Shown here: piece after piece, positions 2,883 through 11,342 of the stretch
How the letters are laid out: the number at the start of each line of letters is the position of its first letter
Position numbering within the stretch: the stretch's first letter is position 1
Origin: a virus
Strand: one strand, 5' to 3'
Length of the DNA: 25,533 nt
IMG/VR virus record: IMGVR_UViG_3300025913_000102
Location: 1 to 25,533 of that record
Translations under genes and position numbers: made by a program
The notes under the pieces: model-generated
The model's database searches: none
Seen by the model: only the letters and a program-made list of their open reading frames with translations
Told to the model about the DNA's origin: nothing

Positions 2883-5381
2883 ATGCCGTCGATCTACCCG
2901 GTCGATCCGACAGACGTCGAGACGTTCACCATCGTCGCCAACCCGCGCCGGACGTTCGTGTCCAGCTCGACGCAAGGGGTGACGGGCTCCGTCTACCTCT
3001 TCGCCCGGCGGTCTCCCATTGTCAAGGACGCTGCGCCCGACTCGTCGTTCGTCGAGTCCGCGCACGATGACGGCGACTACGCCTCGACCCTGAGGTCGGC
3101 CCAACAGGCAGGCAGGATGGTCCGAGCGGGGGCCTTCAGCGGCTCGTTCTTCGGCATGATGGACCAGTACATGCGGGCCGTCAACGCCGAGGGCCAGCAG
3201 CTGCGCCTCCAGCAGAAGTTCGACGTGGTCCGGTTCTCGCCGCCCCCTGTCTTCAACAGCAACACCCTGCGCAAGCTGTTCGTCAAGGACGTCCTCAACG
3301 CCTACTACCGGACCTCGTACCCGACAGCGCACTGGGCCTACACCAACTACAACTCCCTCAACTTCTTCACGGCCTCAGGCTTTCCCACCTCGTCTGCCTT
3401 GCTGTACCCCAACGTCGACGGCGGCACCGGAGGCATGGTCTTCCACGAGGGCTACTGCAGCGGCACCTACACGCCCAGCGGGTCGTTCAGCTTTGACTTC
3501 TACATCAACCCGCGGTACACGACCGACCAACGCGACGGGTCGTTCAGGGCCGGCACCATCCTCCACCTGTCGTCGACGTACGCCCTGTCGCTGGTCAGCG
3601 GTTCCAGCAAGGACGTCAACGGCCGGCCCGTCGGCTTCAGGCTGCAGCTGCAGCTGAGCCACTCGGCCGACACTGCGCCGTCGCTGGCCCTGCCCGGGAG
3701 CTTCCCGCACGACCTGACGTTCCTGTCTGACGACAACTCCTTGTGGCACAACAACTGGCACCACGTGGTCGTCAGGTGGGGCACTCAGGACATCAACGGG
3801 GGCACCGGCACCTTCAACATCGACGGCGTCGACCGGGGCACCTTCCTGGTGCCGTCGTCCACCATCACGCCGAGGTTGTACGCGGGGATCCAGGCGCCTC
3901 CCACCGTCCTGTGCCTGGGCAACTTCTTCGAGGGATCCAACCACGGCAACTATGAACAGGCCAACTTCTTTGCCGCTGACCCGGCAACGCGAGACGGCCT
4001 GCAGCAGCTGATCGCCCAGACTGGCATCGATGAGCCGCAGGGCTACTCGTTCAACCACCCGCTCAACGCAGAGCTGCACGACGTGGCCATCCGACGTTGC
4101 TACCTGTCGGACTTCGACGTCCGGGCCTCGTCCAGCGTCGGGCCCAGCTTCCTCGACAACACCTTCGCCTTCTACGTGCCGCCCTTCTTCGTCGAGCAGT
4201 CGCCCTACCGGCAGTTCGTCGGCACGCACGGTGGGATCCTGGTGACGCCCTTCGAGGAGGTCGACGGGGCCACCACCCGGCCTTTCAGCACCGCCCTGTC
4301 TTTCGGCGTCGCGGGTCACTACATCAACCTCGAGAACTTCGCCAAGGACCTGGCCTCCGAGGTCTTCCCGCGGCTCCACCACTTGACGGGGGCGGCTATC
4401 ACGGTCACCACCGACGCGGAGACCTGCAACCAGTTCCTGTACTCGCAGCCCTTCGTTGCCAAGCGCAACCTGACGGTGATGCCGTGCGATGACGGCCTCT
4501 TCGTGCCCAACTTCCAGCTGTTGGCCTCCGAGTCCCTCCAACGTGCCGTCGACGACCTGGGCATCGATGAGCTCAGCTTCGTCCAGCTGGACGACATGGT
4601 CCTGACGTCGACGCTGATGTTCGGGGGACCCGACACGGACAGCCTGGCCGACCAACAGCTAGGCAGCGCCCCAGAGTCGCCTTTCGCCCAGGTAGGCCCA
4701 GCCACTACTAATTACATCCAGACGGTGTCGTCTGGCAGCGACGTGGAGGCCGGCGCGCCCCTGACGGTGTTCCAGCGGACCCGCGATCCGTCCTCCAACG
4801 AGGTCGTCGTCTTTGACGTCAGCAACCTGTTCTACGGCCTCAGCATTAGCCCGCAGTCCCTACGGCTGTGCGATCCTGACATGGTGCGCTCTAGCTACCT
4901 GGGAGCCAACTTGGCCCTGACCACCTCATCGGGCGCTCAGGTCTGTGGGCCCGTCAAGGTGACGCTGGCCGACGACGGGCGCGGCAACCTGTACCGGGCC
5001 GACTGCCTGACGACGCAGTCCTCATGGAACAGCGTGGGCAACGTCTACTACGACGAGGGCCTCGTCGTCGTCAAGAGCCCGCACCTCTACTTCTTCGGCC
5101 AGGACGCCTACCGCCTCGACCTCAGGGGCGTGCAGCACGTCCACTCCATGAAGGTCGACGTGCTGGCCCCCAACAACCAGCTCAACTCGTCGAGCAACCC
5201 GAGCTACCGGGCCGTCCCGCCCACCGGCTACCCCAACGACACTGACGACAGCTTCGTCTACGTGTCGGGCATCAACTTCCACGACACCGACCTCAACGTG
5301 GTGATGAAGGCTCAGCTGGCTCAGCCCATCCTGAAGCGCTACGGCGATCGAATCATGTTCAAGGTCAGGTACGACTTCTGA
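2883..5381 (+). CDS. Large virion protein with laminin-G-like domain (832 aa)
   Basis: ATG 2883 follows GAGGTG at 2875-2880. Residues about 200-405 read as a concanavalin/laminin-G-like beta sandwich: FDFYINPRYTT, then a strand-rich core, then WHHVVVRWGTQD with an INGGTGTFNIDGVDRG turn, and finally LHDVAIRRCYLSDFDV. That WHHV plus G.D..G layout is typical of LamG type-3 domains, which often bind glycans or mediate protein contacts. The N-terminal 200 residues and the C-terminal half look structural. The extreme C-terminus (LAQPILKRYGDRIMFKVRYDF region) parallels the end of the preceding protein. It could be a baseplate or tail-surface protein that contacts the host; that role is inferred. Confidence 0.75.
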   Translation: MPSIYPVDPTDVETFTIVANPRRTFVSSSTQGVTGSVYLFARRSPIVKDAAPDSSFVESAHDDGDYASTLRSAQQAGRMVRAGAFSGSFFGMMDQYMRAVNAEGQQLRLQQKFDVVRFSPPPVFNSNTLRKLFVKDVLNAYYRTSYPTAHWAYTNYNSLNFFTASGFPTSSALLYPNVDGGTGGMVFHEGYCSGTYTPSGSFSFDFYINPRYTTDQRDGSFRAGTILHLSSTYALSLVSGSSKDVNGRPVGFRLQLQLSHSADTAPSLALPGSFPHDLTFLSDDNSLWHNNWHHVVVRWGTQDINGGTGTFNIDGVDRGTFLVPSSTITPRLYAGIQAPPTVLCLGNFFEGSNHGNYEQANFFAADPATRDGLQQLIAQTGIDEPQGYSFNHPLNAELHDVAIRRCYLSDFDVRASSSVGPSFLDNTFAFYVPPFFVEQSPYRQFVGTHGGILVTPFEEVDGATTRPFSTALSFGVAGHYINLENFAKDLASEVFPRLHHLTGAAITVTTDAETCNQFLYSQPFVAKRNLTVMPCDDGLFVPNFQLLASESLQRAVDDLGIDELSFVQLDDMVLTSTLMFGGPDTDSLADQQLGSAPESPFAQVGPATTNYIQTVSSGSDVEAGAPLTVFQRTRDPSSNEVVVFDVSNLFYGLSISPQSLRLCDPDMVRSSYLGANLALTTSSGAQVCGPVKVTLADDGRGNLYRADCLTTQSSWNSVGNVYYDEGLVVVKSPHLYFFGQDAYRLDLRGVQHVHSMKVDVLAPNNQLNSSSNPSYRAVPPTGYPNDTDDSFVYVSGINFHDTDLNVVMKAQLAQPILKRYGDRIMFKVRYDF

Positions 5382-5980
5382 TGAGGGTCGACTTGCGCAC
5401 CCTGAGGAGGCTGGTCCGCGAGGCGGCCATGACGGCCACGACGTTGCCCGCCGACGTGGGTCTCATCGTCAGGGAATTTCGCGGCGGCGTGACCCTGGCG
5501 CTGGTCAGGCTGCCAACAGTCGAGAGCGTCCTGTCGGGCCAGGAGAGCAGGCCTCGAGCCGCGCTGAATCGGGCCATTGTCGGCAGCATCAGTGCCCACA
5601 AGTTCGACGTCTGGCGGGTGACCAACGTCAGGGCCCAGCGCGGCCACGGCCCACTGCTGTACCGCCTCGCCATGCAGTACGCCACCCAACGGGGCTCGTC
5701 CCTGTCGTCTGACCCTGACGGACAGACGTCGCCGGACGCCCAGGTGGTCTGGGACAAGTTCGCCACGCAGCCCGACGTGGAGGTGGAGTTCCTGAGCGGT
5801 GAACACGACGACCAACGGGACGTAGGCTACTGCCTGGAAGGAGACGACATCTCAGGCCTGGCCCAGAGGTACGCTTCCTTGCTGGCCCGCTACGATCGTC
5901 GGGACCGCGACAGGCTCGATGACCTCCTCGACGGCCTCGACGGGGCCTTGGTCGTGTCAATGAGGAACAGTGGCAGCTAA
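5381..5980 (+). CDS. Acetyltransferase-like (GNAT-type) phage protein (199 aa)
   Basis: ATG 5381 overlaps the previous stop as TGATG. Residues about 77-135 contain VWRVTNVRAQRGHGPLLYRL followed by a TSPDAQVVWDKF segment and PDVEVEF. This matches a phage protein type I recall with a (G/H)GPLLYD.A...A motif, usually described as GNAT-like; the RGHGP loop at 87-91 would sit where acetyl-CoA pyrophosphate binds. The consensus loop is imperfect, so activity is uncertain. The N-terminus (MRVDLRTLRRLVREA) resembles the Lys/Leu/Glu peptides at the start of several head-region proteins here, but lacks a full L/I-x-E site. Confidence 0.55.
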   Translation: MRVDLRTLRRLVREAAMTATTLPADVGLIVREFRGGVTLALVRLPTVESVLSGQESRPRAALNRAIVGSISAHKFDVWRVTNVRAQRGHGPLLYRLAMQYATQRGSSLSSDPDGQTSPDAQVVWDKFATQPDVEVEFLSGEHDDQRDVGYCLEGDDISGLAQRYASLLARYDRRDRDRLDDLLDGLDGALVVSMRNSGS

Positions 5981-6365
5981 GCGTCGTCGCAGGCGCGGCG
6001 GATACCACACGGGCGTTCACCAGTCGCCCAAGTCAGGTGGGCCGTGCGAGTACCGCTCTGGCTGGGAGCTGCTGCTGATGCAGTGGTTCGATGCTGAGCC
6101 CACGGTAACCAGCTATGGCTACGAGACGGTCGTCATCCCGTACGTCAGCAACGCGCGGTCCGGAAAGCAGCGCAAGTACTACCCAGACTTCCTGGTCGAG
6201 TTCACGGACGGCAAGCGCGTGCTGGTCGAGGTGAAGCCCAGCAAGCGGCTGCCCCAGGCCCGGGTCCAGAAGAAGCTGGCGGCCGCACGGCAGTGGTGCT
6301 CGGCCCACGGTGTCACCCTCCAGGTCATCACGGAGCTGGAATTGAGGGGCATGGGGCTGCTGTAG
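5970..6365 (+). CDS. TnsA-like nuclease, T4 gp4-type head completion protein (131 aa)
   Basis: GTG 5970 overlaps the previous gene by 11 bases. After a very basic N-terminus (AAKRRRRRGG) comes a PD-(D/E)xK nuclease core: YRSGWE with E33, then IPYVSNARSGKQRKYYPDF with D73, then VLVEVKPSK with E87 and K89. This order and the YRS.WE / YYPDF wording match proteins labelled head completion nuclease (gp4) in T4-like marine phages. In that role it acts at the filled head before tail joining. A separate DNA-repair role is possible because recombination genes follow directly. Confidence 0.7.
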   Translation: MAAKRRRRRGGYHTGVHQSPKSGGPCEYRSGWELLLMQWFDAEPTVTSYGYETVVIPYVSNARSGKQRKYYPDFLVEFTDGKRVLVEVKPSKRLPQARVQKKLAAARQWCSAHGVTLQVITELELRGMGLL

Positions 6366-6397
6366 GCAGATTTTACGTGTGTCACGTGGGGGCAAAG

Positions 6398-7027
6398 ATG
6401 ACGTCCATGGGCAGGATCTTGGCTCTCGACGTGTCGACTTCGTGCACCGGCGTCTGCATCTACGACGAGGAGGCTCACGCTCCCGATCCGGGCACCCGGA
6501 TGGACGAGCTGGATCACCACGTCAGGTGGCTCGACCGCATCGAGTTCAAGGGCTGCAAGACCTTCTGGGACAAGGTCGACCGGGTGGAGACCTATCTTCG
6601 CGACCTCGAGGCCTCCCACCACATCAATCGTGTCGCCCTGGAGGAGCCGCTGATGGGCTTCCGCCCGGGCATGTCGTCGGCCCAGACCATCTCGCAGCTG
6701 CTGCGCTTCAACGGCATCGTCAGCAACCTGGCCCGCAAGCAGTTCGGAGCGGTGCCCGAGTACATCAGCGCCAACCACGCCCGCAAGGTGGCCGGCGTCA
6801 AGTTGCAGCGGACTGCGGCCGCCGGCATGTCGCAGAAGGAACAGGTCTTCAAGCACATGAGCGAGGGGCCGCTGAAGGGCTTTGCTTGGCCCACCAAGAA
6901 GGATGGCAGCCCAGTCGACTGGTCGAGGGACGCGACTGATGCTTACGTCATTGCATACGCGGCTTCCCACGATGGGGCGCCCGCCGAAGAGGCGCCCAAG
7001 AAGTCCAAGAAGGCCGCTGCGGTGTAG
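6398..7027 (+). CDS. RuvC-like Holliday junction resolvase (209 aa)
   Basis: An RNase H-fold nuclease. Residues RILALDVSTSCTG give catalytic D11, VALEEPL gives E82/E83, and SRDATDAYVIAYA gives D178/D181, the usual DDE/D pattern of RuvC-type resolvases. It ends in a Lys/Ala-rich tail. The frame is open upstream to 6293, but ATG 6398 is chosen because GGGGG lies 7 bases before it and the fold begins at residue 6. It would cut branched DNA made by recombination-dependent replication, the job T4 gives to endonuclease VII, before packaging. It sits with primase and gp46/47 genes, which supports this. Confidence 0.75.
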   Translation: MTSMGRILALDVSTSCTGVCIYDEEAHAPDPGTRMDELDHHVRWLDRIEFKGCKTFWDKVDRVETYLRDLEASHHINRVALEEPLMGFRPGMSSAQTISQLLRFNGIVSNLARKQFGAVPEYISANHARKVAGVKLQRTAAAGMSQKEQVFKHMSEGPLKGFAWPTKKDGSPVDWSRDATDAYVIAYAASHDGAPAEEAPKKSKKAAAV

Positions 7028-7039
7028 CCTCAGGCCATA

Positions 7040-8032
7040 GTGGCCGTCACGCTCACTGATAAGGTACGGTTCTACGAGTCGGTCTTCGGCTCGGGCCGAA
7101 TGTCGCGCAACTGTCGCAACTTCGACGTCCGGTGCCCAGTGTGCCTCGAGAAGGGACCGGTCCCGCCTGACAAGAAAAAGCTGGCGATCCTGACGGAGGA
7201 CGACCGGTGCCACTGCTGGGTCTGCGGCTACAAGAGCCGCACGTTGGCGCCCCTGATCAGGAAGTACGGCAACCTAGCACAGCTGCAGGACTACGTCCAG
7301 CGCTTCATGCCGGCAGGCACCTCGACCTGGTACCCCCGGTGCATCATCGTCACGGGCGACCTGCCTCCTCCTCCGCCCCTGCAGCTACCGAAGGACTTCA
7401 GGCTGCTGGCCAACACCCGCAGCCGGGACCCTGACGTGGCCGCCTGCAGGCGGTACCTGTACGGCCGGGGCCTGACGGACGATGACCTGTGGTTCTACAA
7501 GCTGGGGTACAGCAACGAGGCCACGTGGCACCGGCGGGTCATCATGCCTTCCTTTGACCGCGATGGGGCCCTCAATCACTACGTCGGCAGGTCGATCGAC
7601 AGGGGCAAGCGCCCCAAGTACGAGTCGCCCGAGGGGGACCGCAAGCAGGTCATCTTCAACGAGATCAACATTGACTGGTCGCGGCAGCTGGTCGTCTGCG
7701 AAGGCGCCTTCGACCTGGTCAAGTGCGGCGACAACGCGGTCCCACTGCTGGGCAGCGACCTCAACGAGGAATCAGCGCTGTTCAACGCTATCGTCGCCCA
7801 CGGCACGCCGGTCGCCCTGGCGCTCGATGCTGACATGCGGCTGACCAAGGCCCCGCGCGTGGCCCAGAAGCTGGCAGACTACAACATCGACGTGTCGATG
7901 GTGTCAGTGGCCACCGACCCAGGGGACGCCACCAAGGCAGAGTTCAAGGCGGCCTTGAGGGATGCCCGCGCCTTCGACTGGAACCTGACGTTCTTCGACA
8001 GGCTGGATCACGCGGCCCTCATCCGCCTGTGA
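7040..8032 (+). CDS. DNA primase-like protein, CHC2 zinc finger plus TOPRIM (330 aa)
   Basis: Residues 32-62 hold a zinc ribbon (CPVC at 32-35 and CHCWVC at 57-62), as in DnaG-type primases. A TOPRIM-type catalytic region follows: VVCEGAFDLV with E221 and ALALDADM with D263 and D265. Together these define a bacterial-style primase that lays RNA primers on the lagging strand. It is shorter than DnaG, with no clear helicase-interaction domain. GTG 7040 is the chosen start, since the stretch before the finger (VRFYESVFGSGRMSRN) looks like family sequence, but its ribosome-binding site is weak. Its stop is followed at once by the gp47-like gene. Confidence 0.75.
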   Translation: MAVTLTDKVRFYESVFGSGRMSRNCRNFDVRCPVCLEKGPVPPDKKKLAILTEDDRCHCWVCGYKSRTLAPLIRKYGNLAQLQDYVQRFMPAGTSTWYPRCIIVTGDLPPPPPLQLPKDFRLLANTRSRDPDVAACRRYLYGRGLTDDDLWFYKLGYSNEATWHRRVIMPSFDRDGALNHYVGRSIDRGKRPKYESPEGDRKQVIFNEINIDWSRQLVVCEGAFDLVKCGDNAVPLLGSDLNEESALFNAIVAHGTPVALALDADMRLTKAPRVAQKLADYNIDVSMVSVATDPGDATKAEFKAALRDARAFDWNLTFFDRLDHAALIRL

Positions 8033-8076: not shown

Positions 8077-8730
8077 GTGCTGCATGTCAGGATCGCCCAC
8101 ATCGCAGACGTGCACTGGAGGGGCCTTTCGCGGCACGATGAGTACCGCGAGGTCTTTTCAGCGTTCGTTGACCAGGTCAAGCAGGCAGGTGCAGACCACA
8201 TCTTCGTGGGAGGCGACATCTTCCACACCAAGACCTCAGGCCTGTCTCCTGAGTACATCGAGCAGCTCAGCTGGTGGGTGACAGCGATGGCCGACGTGGC
8301 CGAGGTCCACCTGACCCTGGGCAACCACGACGGCAACCTCGTCAACCTCTCCCGGCAGGACGCCGTCACGCCCATCGTGGAGGCCCTGCGTAACCCGCGC
8401 GTGCACCTCTACAAGAAGAGTGGGACGTACGAGTTCACGCCGGGCTACTGCTGGTGCATCTTCAGCCTGTTCGACGAGGAAGGCTGGCGTAGCGTGGAGC
8501 CGGTGCCCGGCAAGGTCAACATTGCCTGTTACCACGGCCCGGTCCGCGGGGCCACGACGGAGAGCGACTGGCTGATCGAGGAAGGCCTGACGGTCGACTT
8601 CTTTGAGCGGTTCGATTTCTGCCTGCTGGGAGACATCCACAAGATGCAGTACTTGGGCACTCGCCTCGTGGAGATGGAAGTCGAGGAGTCTGAGCTTCAC
8701 CGCTACCCGGGGGCCGAGGTCGTCAAGTGA
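8077..8730 (+). CDS. 47: Mre11/SbcD/gp47-like nuclease, catalytic part only (217 aa)
   Basis: A calcineurin-like metallophosphoesterase with the Mre11 motifs in order: IADVH (D11, H13), VGGDIFH (D47), LGNHDG (N83, H84), CYHG (H153) and LLGDIHK (H188). Family members continue past this point with a YPGS..QQN.GE strand and a capping domain; here the frame ends 29 residues after H188 and that missing portion is found at the N-terminus of the next gene. The start is uncertain: GTG 8077 (MLHVRIAHIADVHW) is preferred because the fold begins there, but GTG 8029, overlapping the primase stop as GTGA, would add 16 residues. T4 gp47 works with gp46 to resect DNA ends for recombination. Confidence 0.8.
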   Translation: MLHVRIAHIADVHWRGLSRHDEYREVFSAFVDQVKQAGADHIFVGGDIFHTKTSGLSPEYIEQLSWWVTAMADVAEVHLTLGNHDGNLVNLSRQDAVTPIVEALRNPRVHLYKKSGTYEFTPGYCWCIFSLFDEEGWRSVEPVPGKVNIACYHGPVRGATTESDWLIEEGLTVDFFERFDFCLLGDIHKMQYLGTRLVEMEVEESELHRYPGAEVVK

Positions 8731-11342
8731 GCAAGGTCAGGATTCGAACCCACCGGCCGTGGATCGCCTACCCCGGCAGCCCCGTCCAGCAGAACTACGC
8801 CGAAGAGCTTCGTCATGGCTTCCTGCTGTGGGACATCAAGAGCAAGGAGCAGTTCGACGTCAGGTTCTGCGAGCTGCCCAACCCGCGCCCGTTCGTCACC
8901 GTCGATTGGGCCGGCACGGTCGAGGCCACGCTGGAAGCCTCACGCGTTCACCCGATGGGCGCACGCTTCCGGATCCGCAACCGCGACGTCCTCCCCCAGA
9001 AGGAGGTCGCCCAGCTGACGCTCGAGCTGCGCAACGAGATGAAGGCATCCGAGGTCACCTTCAAGAGCGAGAGGAGGGTCAACCGCGACGTCATCTCGGC
9101 AGGTTCGACCACGCTGGTCAAGGCCGACCTGCGCAACCCCGACGTGCTGATGCGACTGCTCCGCGAGTATCACAAGGAAGCGGGCCTGTCGGACGACGAG
9201 TGGTCCACCGTCAAGGATCAGGTGACTGCCTACCTGCAACAGGCCCTCGATGGCGACGATGTGGTCCGAAACACCAAGTGGTCGCTCCGGCACGTGGCCT
9301 GGGACAACACGTTCGCCTACGGCAAGGGCAACGCGATCAACTTTGACCAGGCCGCGGGTGTGGTCGGCATCTTCGGCCCGAACGCCCGCGGCAAGTCGTC
9401 AGTGGTGGGCACCATCCTGTACGGCCTCTTCAACACGACAGACCGTGGCAACGTCAAGAACCTGCACGTCATCAATGTCAGGCACCCGTACTGCTACACC
9501 CGGTCCGTCGTCAACGTCAACGGCACCAACCACTCCATCGAGCGGCAGACCGTCAGGTACGAGACAAAGAAAGGTCAGAACTACGCAGGCACCCAGCTCA
9601 ACGTCTTTCGAATCGCAGAGGACGGCTCTGCCCACGACCTGGCCGGCGAACAGCGCAACGACACCGAGAAGGTGATCCGGCGCCTCATCGGCACGCCCGA
9701 GGACTGCCTGCTGACTTCCGTCGCCGCGCAGGACGACGTGAAGCTGTTCATTAACCAGGGCACTACCAAGCGCAGGAAGGACTTGTCGAGGTTCTTGGAC
9801 CTCGACATCTTCGACAAGATGCACGAGCTGGCCAAGCTCGACGTCAATGCGAACAAGGCCGCCCTGAAGCAGCTGCCCGACCGCGACTGGCAGCGCCTGG
9901 AGGCCTCGCTCCTGGAGGCGCTGGCGGACCACGAGGCTAAGATCCGAGAGTGCGACCGCCAGCTGCACCAGGCAGGCCAGGATCTGGCTGACGTCCAGGC
10001 ACAGCTGGCGGCCTTCAAGGACTTCAAGCCGGTCACTCAGAACCAGGTCGACCAGCAGCGACACTGGGTGGCCGACGAGGAGGTACGCGCCCAAAAGCTG
10101 CGCACTGAGCTCGAGCAGGCCCGCGACCAGATCGCCGACAGGCAGAAGAAGGCGCAGAAGGTCGACTCCGTCCTGGCAGACAACGACCTGGACGCCCTGA
10201 AGAAGAGGTTGGAGTCGCTGCGGACGCTGGAGTCGTCTCTGGAGGCCCTGAAGGCCACCCATGAGAGGGACGCTGCCCTGTTGAAGCAGCAGGAGAAGTC
10301 CCTCAAGATCCTGGACGACGTGCCTTGCGGCGACTCGTACCCGGGCTGCAAGTTCATCAAGGACGCCTTCAAGCAGAAGGACCGCGTCGACCCGCAGCGC
10401 GACAGGGTGCAGCGGGCCCTGGAGAGGGTGCAGAAGGCAGAAGAGTCGCTGGCCGTGCTCAAGGCCGACGACTTGCCGGCTCGTGTCTCCAAGTTGGAAC
10501 AGCTGCGAACGATGAAGGCCACGCTGGCCACTGAGGTCGCACGCCTCGAGGTGACCCGTGATCGCAAGGAGCACGACCTGGTCCTGGCCGACGCACGCCT
10601 GGAAGACGGTCGCCGGCGCCTGTCGGAGCTGGAGGAGGCCCTGCGCAACGAGGAGAACGCAGAGGTCGTCGCCCTCCGCAACAGGCTCGACGGCATGCAG
10701 CGGTCTGCCAAGGCACATGACTCCGAAAGGCTGCGCCTGGCCGCCGAGGTGGGTCGGACGCGGTCCGACCTCGCCAAGATGGAGGTCGACCGGCGCCGCC
10801 GCCTCGACGTCCTCCAGGCGATGAGGGTCCACGAGCTGGTCGTCCAGGCGTACTCTCGCCGCGGCATCCCCAGCCTGATCGTGGCCTCGCAGCTGCCCGC
10901 TATCAACGCGGAGATCGCCCAGATCCTGGCCGGCATCGTCAACTTCACTGTGGAGCTGGAGCAGGACGACGACAGCGACTCGATGGAGGTCTTCATCGAC
11001 TACGGCGACAGTCGCCGCATCATCGAGCTGGCCTCAGGCATGGAGAAGACGATCGCGTCCATCGCCATCCGGGTCGCCCTGATCAACGTCACCTCGCTGC
11101 CCAAGACTGACATGTTCATCATCGATGAGGCCTTTGGCCCCCTCGATCCGACGGGCGTGGAGGCGTGCAACCGGCTGCTGGTCTCCTTGAAGCGGTACTT
11201 CCGCGTCATCGTCGTCATCACCCACGTGGAGGGCATCAAGGACGTCGCGGACCACGTCATCGAGGTCGGCCGCGTCGAGAGCGATGCCCGGGTGTTGTAC
11301 GATGATACGTGGCCCAAAGACCGTACCTCCGCGACAGGCTGA
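8727..11342 (+). CDS. 46: Rad50/SbcC/gp46-like ATPase fused to the C-terminal part of Mre11 (871 aa)
   Basis: The N-terminal 190 residues are not Rad50: WIAYPGSPVQQNYAEELRHG then FLLWDI are the last strands of an Mre11 nuclease domain, followed by its capping region. The ATPase begins near residue 185: Walker A GPNARGKSS (K223), long coiled coils about 370-530 and 545-700, a central hook with Cys534 and Cys541 (CX6C), signature LASGMEK at 768-774, and Walker B MFIIDEAFGPLD (D800, E801). GTG 8727 overlaps the previous stop as GTGA. The product would act as the ATP-driven clamp of a Mre11-Rad50 end-processing complex. A frame joined to the upstream gene would give about 1,088 residues. Confidence 0.85.
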   Translation: MSKVRIRTHRPWIAYPGSPVQQNYAEELRHGFLLWDIKSKEQFDVRFCELPNPRPFVTVDWAGTVEATLEASRVHPMGARFRIRNRDVLPQKEVAQLTLELRNEMKASEVTFKSERRVNRDVISAGSTTLVKADLRNPDVLMRLLREYHKEAGLSDDEWSTVKDQVTAYLQQALDGDDVVRNTKWSLRHVAWDNTFAYGKGNAINFDQAAGVVGIFGPNARGKSSVVGTILYGLFNTTDRGNVKNLHVINVRHPYCYTRSVVNVNGTNHSIERQTVRYETKKGQNYAGTQLNVFRIAEDGSAHDLAGEQRNDTEKVIRRLIGTPEDCLLTSVAAQDDVKLFINQGTTKRRKDLSRFLDLDIFDKMHELAKLDVNANKAALKQLPDRDWQRLEASLLEALADHEAKIRECDRQLHQAGQDLADVQAQLAAFKDFKPVTQNQVDQQRHWVADEEVRAQKLRTELEQARDQIADRQKKAQKVDSVLADNDLDALKKRLESLRTLESSLEALKATHERDAALLKQQEKSLKILDDVPCGDSYPGCKFIKDAFKQKDRVDPQRDRVQRALERVQKAEESLAVLKADDLPARVSKLEQLRTMKATLATEVARLEVTRDRKEHDLVLADARLEDGRRRLSELEEALRNEENAEVVALRNRLDGMQRSAKAHDSERLRLAAEVGRTRSDLAKMEVDRRRRLDVLQAMRVHELVVQAYSRRGIPSLIVASQLPAINAEIAQILAGIVNFTVELEQDDDSDSMEVFIDYGDSRRIIELASGMEKTIASIAIRVALINVTSLPKTDMFIIDEAFGPLDPTGVEACNRLLVSLKRYFRVIVVITHVEGIKDVADHVIEVGRVESDARVLYDDTWPKDRTSATG

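Follow-up and report, generated by a model that had tools for sequence, protein, structure and literature searches.

A two-chain phage Mre11-Rad50 probably split by a homing endonuclease gene and held together by paired charged strands

In SbcCD, the usual border between the two genes falls after the capping domain of the nuclease. The locus described here, in a 25,533-nucleotide (nt) virus contig (IMG/VR record IMGVR_UViG_3300025913_000102; the whole stretch is called the window), has the nuclease, capping, and ATPase domains of SbcCD/Mre11-Rad50, but its gene border lies inside the nuclease fold and the capping domain is on the ATPase chain. The upstream gene, called M, encodes the catalytic half of the nuclease, and the downstream gene, A, encodes the remainder together with a Rad50-like ATPase. 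The predicted product is an Mre11-Rad50 in which only the ATPase chain can complete the nuclease fold. A few phage genes are known to be split by free-standing homing endonucleases, and to our knowledge it has rarely been explained how the split halves survive. Fractured genes that combine split inteins with a Vsr-like family of homing endonucleases were reportedly described by Dassa in 2009. Some relatives of the window resemble them in that the two parts of a phage gene are separated by a gene for a Vsr-like endonuclease; unlike in fractured genes, no intein halves were found here with Pfam, and the halves would join non-covalently.

The other described systems are compared here through excerpts of the cited papers. 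Aeromonas phage Aeh1 nrdA, T4 39/60, and gene 43 of Aeromonas phage 25 are endonuclease-associated split genes, and Aeh1 nrdA was shown to work as two chains (PMC2988022). In its nrdA-a/mobE/nrdA-b arrangement, a free-standing endonuclease gene splits a functionally critical region, and the enzyme is formed by two chains without splicing (PMC2988022, PMC3653736; the latter lists split phage ribonucleotide reductases). The window is similar but concerns another enzyme, a single site is recurrently split in many phages, the endonuclease is absent from most splits seen, and the new ends carry a conserved pair of charged strands, a comparison confined to the ends of the present family. T4 topoisomerase 39/60 with mobA and the split DNA polymerase 43A/43B are likewise two-piece phage replication proteins with a link to homing endonucleases; the enzyme here is instead Mre11-Rad50, and for gene 43 it is left open whether the split or the endonuclease came first, partly as here (PMC2988022). 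The split mitochondrial cox2 of Campsomeris has likewise undergone insertional fission, in which a putative homing nuclease is involved; in one species, Glu terminates the upstream chain and the start of the downstream chain is rich in Lys, and salt bridges between these charged ends have been proposed, although the setting is an animal mitochondrion and the protein is unrelated (PMC5374615). SbcC and SbcD themselves are practically universal in jumbo phages (PMC7824862). Among the literature matches listed, which for the most part did not extend to subscription journals and preprints, no title or abstract beginning mentioned a phage Mre11-Rad50, whether split or single-chain, in connection with a homing endonuclease. 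Compared with known genes in pieces, the new part is the paired strands. Because the endonuclease itself is missing from it, the window would be a late stage of a gene in pieces.

We consider it likely that the two-chain Mre11-Rad50 arose when insertion of a homing endonuclease gene split a continuous gene, that the endonuclease was later lost, and that the halves are rejoined by an inter-chain beta-zipper, with A produced by coupled re-initiation. The interruption itself is apparent from profile matches. M matches Pfam Metallophos (5e-12) and PHROG 100 (SbcD-like) over profile positions 30-224, and residues 13-152 of A take up the same profile at 226-375 (2.5e-5). This bears out the initial annotation, made from the letters of the window, in its claim of an Mre11-type fold that is interrupted and has its remainder fused to a Rad50-like ATPase. 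Beyond its nuclease part, A matches PHROG 77 (SbcC-like; 1.4e-48, 156-856) and, under the curated cut-offs in both cases, Pfam SMC_N (202-851) and AAA_23 (197-469). The ATPase open reading frame (ORF) of A is uninterrupted and contains GPNARGKSS, SGMEK, and IIDEAFGPLD, which we take to be Walker A, signature, and Walker B motifs; together with the long coiled coil between, these give A the features of Rad50/SbcC. The phosphoesterase motifs of M are DVH, GDIFH, GNHD, YHGP, and GDIH. The last motif is usually GHxH in Mre11/SbcD but is GDIH here, and relatives were parsed via GDIH or GDVH. M ends after GDIHK plus a short tail and the remainder is on A, so that nuclease and capping domain do not share a single chain; a nuclease fold followed by a capping domain is obtained only with both chains, in a joined model of the relative L011. 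The GTG start of A (8727-8729) and the TGA stop of M (8728-8730) have GTGA in common, and this overlap and the position of AAGTGAGC (8725-8732) are as first annotated. Going by family membership, the predicted role would be in DNA-end processing.

Relatives were collected from viral contigs, GenBank phages, and bacterial genome contigs by likeness to split and fused queries, with the best 80 taken per list. From 342 sources (the window and L002-L342; L001 is a copy of the window), 251 loci were parsed, leaving out 77 endonuclease-only loci (L183-L259) and 14 in which the partner or motif was not found (L085, L094, L304, and L332-L342). There were 176 single-chain Mre11-Rad50 loci and 75 split loci, which, given how they were fetched, is no frequency. 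Several loci are copies of one contig; the 159 distinct sequences comprise 115 fused and 44 split. The gene is thus continuous in 176 of 251 relatives, as in a gene in pieces made by homing, and an isolated phage, Microcystis phage Mel-JY01, carries the single-chain form. All 75 splits interrupt the same hairpin, between GDIHKxQ and the strand that carries P(W)IxYPGS. The initial annotation had proposed this comparison of junctions and had held that an upstream gene with a capping domain of its own would speak against it; no such gene was seen, as M extends only 24 to 33 residues past GDIHxxxx in 75 of 75 splits. The linker from GDIHxxxx to G[ST] measures 8 to 18 residues in 175 of 176 fused loci (32 in L142), and that of the window would measure 41 if joined (25 from M and 16 from A).

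All 16 representatives of the clade that contains the window are split (Shimodaira-Hasegawa-like approximate likelihood ratio test, SH-aLRT, 99). Its junctions include GTGA, TTGA, or ATGA overlaps, a stop codon with an in-frame start immediately behind it (L011 and L014), +1 frames (L007 and L045), a one-base overlap (L019), and a 307-base gap (L013). Such variation within one clade makes a read error impossible and a conserved frameshift unlikely, and we conclude that the split is genuine and not a sequencing error. In L013, which is closely related to the window, M and A are separated by a 104-residue ORF of unknown family (6648-6962).

In a tree of M plus A with 124 representatives, the split or fused state requires 14 changes, at least 12 of which are forced by starred branches. 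Single-gene trees required 13 changes for M (at least 5 forced) and 16 for A (at least 11 forced). A coarser tree of 109 representatives, in which split and fused near-copies had been merged, gave 12 changes (at least 8 forced) and is superseded by the 124-representative tree. Split L020 groups with fused L072, to which it is 93% identical (on M alone, fused L271 is closest), and split L027 is nearest to fused L070 (94%). With L099 as the outgroup, fused would be the simpler ancestral state.

Both new ends carry short extensions, an acidic C-terminal tail on M and a basic N-terminal head on A. In 41 of 41 distinct pairs (L002-L154 plus the window), the tail has a net negative charge (mean -5.9) and the head a net positive one (mean +4.7); the same sign pair occurred in 23% of random segments from the same chains. 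The ratio of nonsynonymous to synonymous differences (pN/pS) over 40 loci was 0.37 for the tail and 0.33 for the head, while the tail in two wrong frames gave 1.15 and 1.41. The tail and head are conserved as protein. Furthermore, tail-plus-head DNA of L020, L021, L023, and L027 is 90-98% identical in 6 of 6 pairs, in which identity is 72-79% for M and 58-74% for the first 600 nt of A. A near-identical tail and head beside divergent M and A is the pattern expected from homing with short co-conversion. In the window's clade (15 loci, 105 pairs), tail-plus-head identity averages 60% versus 69% for M and 62% for A and is above both in 11 pairs; a tail and head no better conserved than their neighbors is the expectation for vertical descent after loss of the endonuclease.

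The M tail was also considered as a piece of a known mobile motif, namely a GW-type motif of homing proteins, a candidate that was rejected: tail hidden Markov models run over 42,168 ORFs of the collected loci matched Mre11-type ORFs (71 and 22), and the matches outside these (3 and 9) all had E values of 3.4 or worse. A tblastn search of phages with the M tail gave no match.

AlphaFold2 was applied to L011 with the halves joined (its in-frame TGA read as W). The model has strands at 187-200 and 221-234, each 14 residues long, with block confidence of 86-93 for 181-230 and 71 for 231-240. In the fused control L058, the corresponding strands, at 189-195 and 201-207, have 7 residues each. The 14+14 strands compared with 7+7 suggest that the tail and head would double the hairpin. 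Residues 1-333 of the joined model aligned to the SbcD nuclease and capping domain (Z of 22.7, root mean square deviation of 3.9, 272 residues aligned) and, over the same range, to 7dog, 4m0v, and others. From charge, conservation, and this model, it is probable that the two chains are kept in contact by the oppositely charged strands at their new ends. One conserved charge-paired strand per new end offers a ready hypothesis for the rescue of a split enzyme, makes the rescue question testable with short peptides, and suggests a natural split-protein tag pair.

Endonuclease genes are found at the split site in relatives. In L023 and L024, the space between M and A is taken up by a 300-residue ORF, which matches a homing endonuclease PHROG (4e-17) and, below the curated cut-off, Pfam Vsr. 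Among the best 80 relatives of the L024-type endonuclease, the three closest are L180 and L181, on the same two contigs as L023 and L024, and L182. The L182 endonuclease (PHROG homing endonuclease, 7e-11) is 39% identical to that of L024 over 4-290 of 300 residues, and its gene lies exactly between an M and an A that are divergent (38% and 29% identical, respectively, to the nearest query used). The start of A overlaps the 3' end of the endonuclease gene in L024 and L182. The remaining 77 of the 80 show 22-44% identity in partial or long alignments, with one short stretch at 59%, and none has M or A on the same strand within its flanks of at most 3 kb. A different ORF occupies the site in LR756508 (L098, 484 kb), with a match to an HNH-endonuclease PHROG (3.5e-15) and a TnsA-like nuclease domain barely above the cut-off.

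Other gaps, judged by eye, hold remnants. L020 has a 44-residue ORF joining both endonuclease ends, the gaps of L027 and L021 (109 and 75 nt) retain the endonuclease 3' end, L109 retains, in its 75-nt gap, the coding sequence for the end of such an endonuclease, and the 57-nt gap of L025 holds scarcely more than the start of A. These remnants are from different lineages and form a graded series, not one history. Sequence comparison thus reveals fused relatives, same-site splits, endonuclease genes or remnants, and a conserved tail and head; one family has, in different lineages, the gene uninterrupted, with an endonuclease, with remnants, as a clean two-chain form, and apparently re-fused. The last state is that of L142 (about 5001-5700), which is fused yet has a full tail-and-head linker of 32 residues and whose sister, L173, is fused and tail-less; it appears to be a once-split gene that became continuous again. 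L151, L149, and L330, also fused, have at most traces of tail and head. The probable cause, a homing endonuclease, together with the recurrence and the paired strands, goes beyond what the initial annotation had in view. Because the window lacks the endonuclease, that cause rests on relatives for the window's lineage, for which we infer both a split made by homing and the order of events.

In the proposed history, the ancestor would be a single-chain Mre11-Rad50, a form that outnumbers the split one among the relatives fetched. A free-standing homing endonuclease gene would have inserted in the hairpin codons after the last active-site motif, and with this insertion the upstream half would have gained a short tail and the downstream half a head, either carried in or newly created. 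Later loss of the endonuclease gene would have left the start/stop overlap behind. One message would serve both chains, and ribosomes finishing M would start A, aided by GAGGT in the M tail. The acidic tail strand would then pair with the basic head strand, by which the nuclease sheet would be rebuilt and tied to the ATPase. We give even chances to an extension of this history in which the mobile unit is a cassette of acidic strand, endonuclease, and basic strand, that is, a selfish element with its own protein adaptor that lets the cut enzyme reassemble without splicing. Phages with such a cassette may later drop the endonuclease and keep the two-chain enzyme, or re-fuse it, as L142 may have done.

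Coupled re-initiation was among the explanations first offered for a deliberate split, and the junctions favor it on sequence grounds. Across 26 distinct junctions, the Shine-Dalgarno match averaged 5.7 nt versus 4.5 nt in synonymous shuffles, 20 junctions were above their own mean, and 9 had an 8- to 9-nt consensus match; no single locus fell under 0.03 in this comparison. Conservation of the tail end as a Shine-Dalgarno sequence under selection was not accepted, since the excess over the shuffles is only modest, and it is retained as a hint.

Several observations weigh against the proposed history. The 5-nt match of the window is at expectation and not above its synonymous shuffles. The fold is that of a covalently joined surrogate, L011 read through its stop, and such a link favors a hairpin. 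The charge counts were drawn from related sequences that are not independent, and the tails of the two deep clades (about 25 residues) are alike in pattern only. The trees are quick LG+G4 trees with flagged long branches, and M and A place L020 differently. The LR756508 ORF also matches a "head closure" PHROG (2e-10), which makes its endonuclease label less sure. No endonuclease ORF was seen in the 696-nt M-A gap of L154. That gap (about 5601-6400) has a 120-residue frame open on the opposite strand, so that A may need its own promoter there.

Two further points, which also count in favor of a different order of events, are that the window lacks the endonuclease, and no remnant was noticed when the clean overlaps in its clade were viewed by eye (no search was made), and that the gap in the L103 group is filled by a gene not recognized as an endonuclease. 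This conserved gene of about 290-315 residues lies at 5668-6597 in L103 and at the same place in L104, L110, L112, L113, and L130, and the gap is the same in L105 and L106; it had no PHROG match at an E value of 0.01 in L103 and only a weak DUF354 match in L103 and L113. Ordinary mutation, an indel or a stop with re-initiation, could have split the gene first, with endonucleases or other genes invading the gap later, an order also raised for gene 43 of Aeromonas phage 25 in the excerpt of PMC2988022. The endonuclease-like genes at the site are of two kinds, which is consistent with such invasion. However, a near-identical tail and head flank an endonuclease or what is left of it in lineages that have fused genes as their closest relatives, A starts within the endonuclease 3' end in L024 and L182, and L020, L027, and L021 retain that 3' end. 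We therefore regard a split that preceded the endonuclease as unlikely.

A programmed -1 frameshift at AAGTGAGC, yielding some joined M-A protein, had also been suggested. The frames overlap by 4 nt in the window and single-chain relatives show that fusion occurs, but the frame relation varies among relatives (-1, +1, in-frame stop, and gaps to about 1 kb, with a whole gene or a long gap between the cistrons in several), no slippery heptamer was evident by eye (no scan was made), and a start codon and a Shine-Dalgarno-like stretch are present instead. A frameshift is thus very improbable. Removal of the interruption by an intron or a split intein to give one protein is scarcely credible. Vsr-like homing endonucleases are said to occur with split inteins (Dassa 2009), yet no Rfam family, group I introns included, reached its gathering score in L024, L182, L098, L027, or L011 and none was credible at the window junction. 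No intein family was among the Pfam matches of M and A in the window (E values up to 1) or in L182, L023, and L098 (E values up to 0.1). The tail and head are, moreover, conserved as protein, and the extra DNA of the window, roughly 70-100 nt, is too short for self-splicing introns, which are longer. A sequencing or assembly error in an ordinary fused gene, which the initial annotation raised because one extra base would join the frames, is excluded in practice, since all 16 clade representatives are split in several frame relations and the 41-residue joined linker is 23-33 residues longer than in 175 of 176 single-chain relatives.

The coordinates of the two-chain locus are given in Table 1. 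The start codon of M is uncertain: GTG at 8077 fits the relatives by eye, and the ORF as listed begins at GTG 8029.

Table 1. Features of the M-A locus, in window positions
Feature	Position	Strand	Basis
M, catalytic half of Mre11/SbcD-type nuclease to GDIHK plus tail	8077..8730	+	ORF, Metallophos, PHROG 100
Acidic C-terminal tail of M (LVEMEVEESELHRYPGAEVVK)	8665..8727	+	Net charge -4; pN/pS 0.37 over 40 loci
GAGGT, Shine-Dalgarno-like, within tail codons	8716..8720	+	6 nt upstream of A start
GTGA, overlap of A start and M stop	8727..8730	+	Sequence
Basic N-terminal head of A (VSKVRIRTHR)	8727..8756	+	Net +4 over 12 residues counted; pN/pS 0.33 over 40 loci
Phosphoesterase-fold strands that follow GDIHK in single-chain relatives (PWIAYPGSPVQQNYAEELRHGFLLWDI)	8757..8837	+	Fused relatives; PHROG 100 226-375
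Nuclease capping domain and subsequent helices, on A chain (ends approximate)	8838..9314	+	Joined L011 model versus SbcD
Rad50/SbcC-like ATPase, coiled coil, C-X6-C (CGDSYPGC) at hook position	9315..11342	+	PHROG 77; AAA_23 below cut-off; hook pattern

The window also has genes for a RuvC-like resolvase, primase, terminase, portal, head protease, and major head protein, and M and A lie between the primase and terminase genes. The primase stop and the possible M start GTG also overlap as GTGA (8029-8032), so that primase, M, and A may form one coupled string. An RNA element or transfer RNA (tRNA) at the junction, where GGATTCGAACCC is T-arm-like, was rejected: ARAGORN found 0 tRNA genes there, and Rfam gave only two chance-level matches far under the gathering scores.

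In the phage collection, M of the window matched 7 records and M of L109 matched 6. The only split phage record among those opened was LR756508, which is uncultured (Staphylococcus and Tenacibaculum records were left out), and no close relatives of its M protein were confirmed in viral contigs. Fourteen bacterial genome contigs matched, of which L328-L331 are fused; they have little bearing on the host of the window.

No zinc hook CXXC was found past A-core residue 350 in the window, which has CX6C instead. In the window's deep clade, 54 of 57 uncut representatives have the form C[GNE][DES]xx[PL]xC at the hook position, and the other deep clade has CXXC without that form in 58 of 58 uncut representatives, as scored with simple patterns. 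An altered zinc-hook spacing may therefore be a mark of the window's deep clade.

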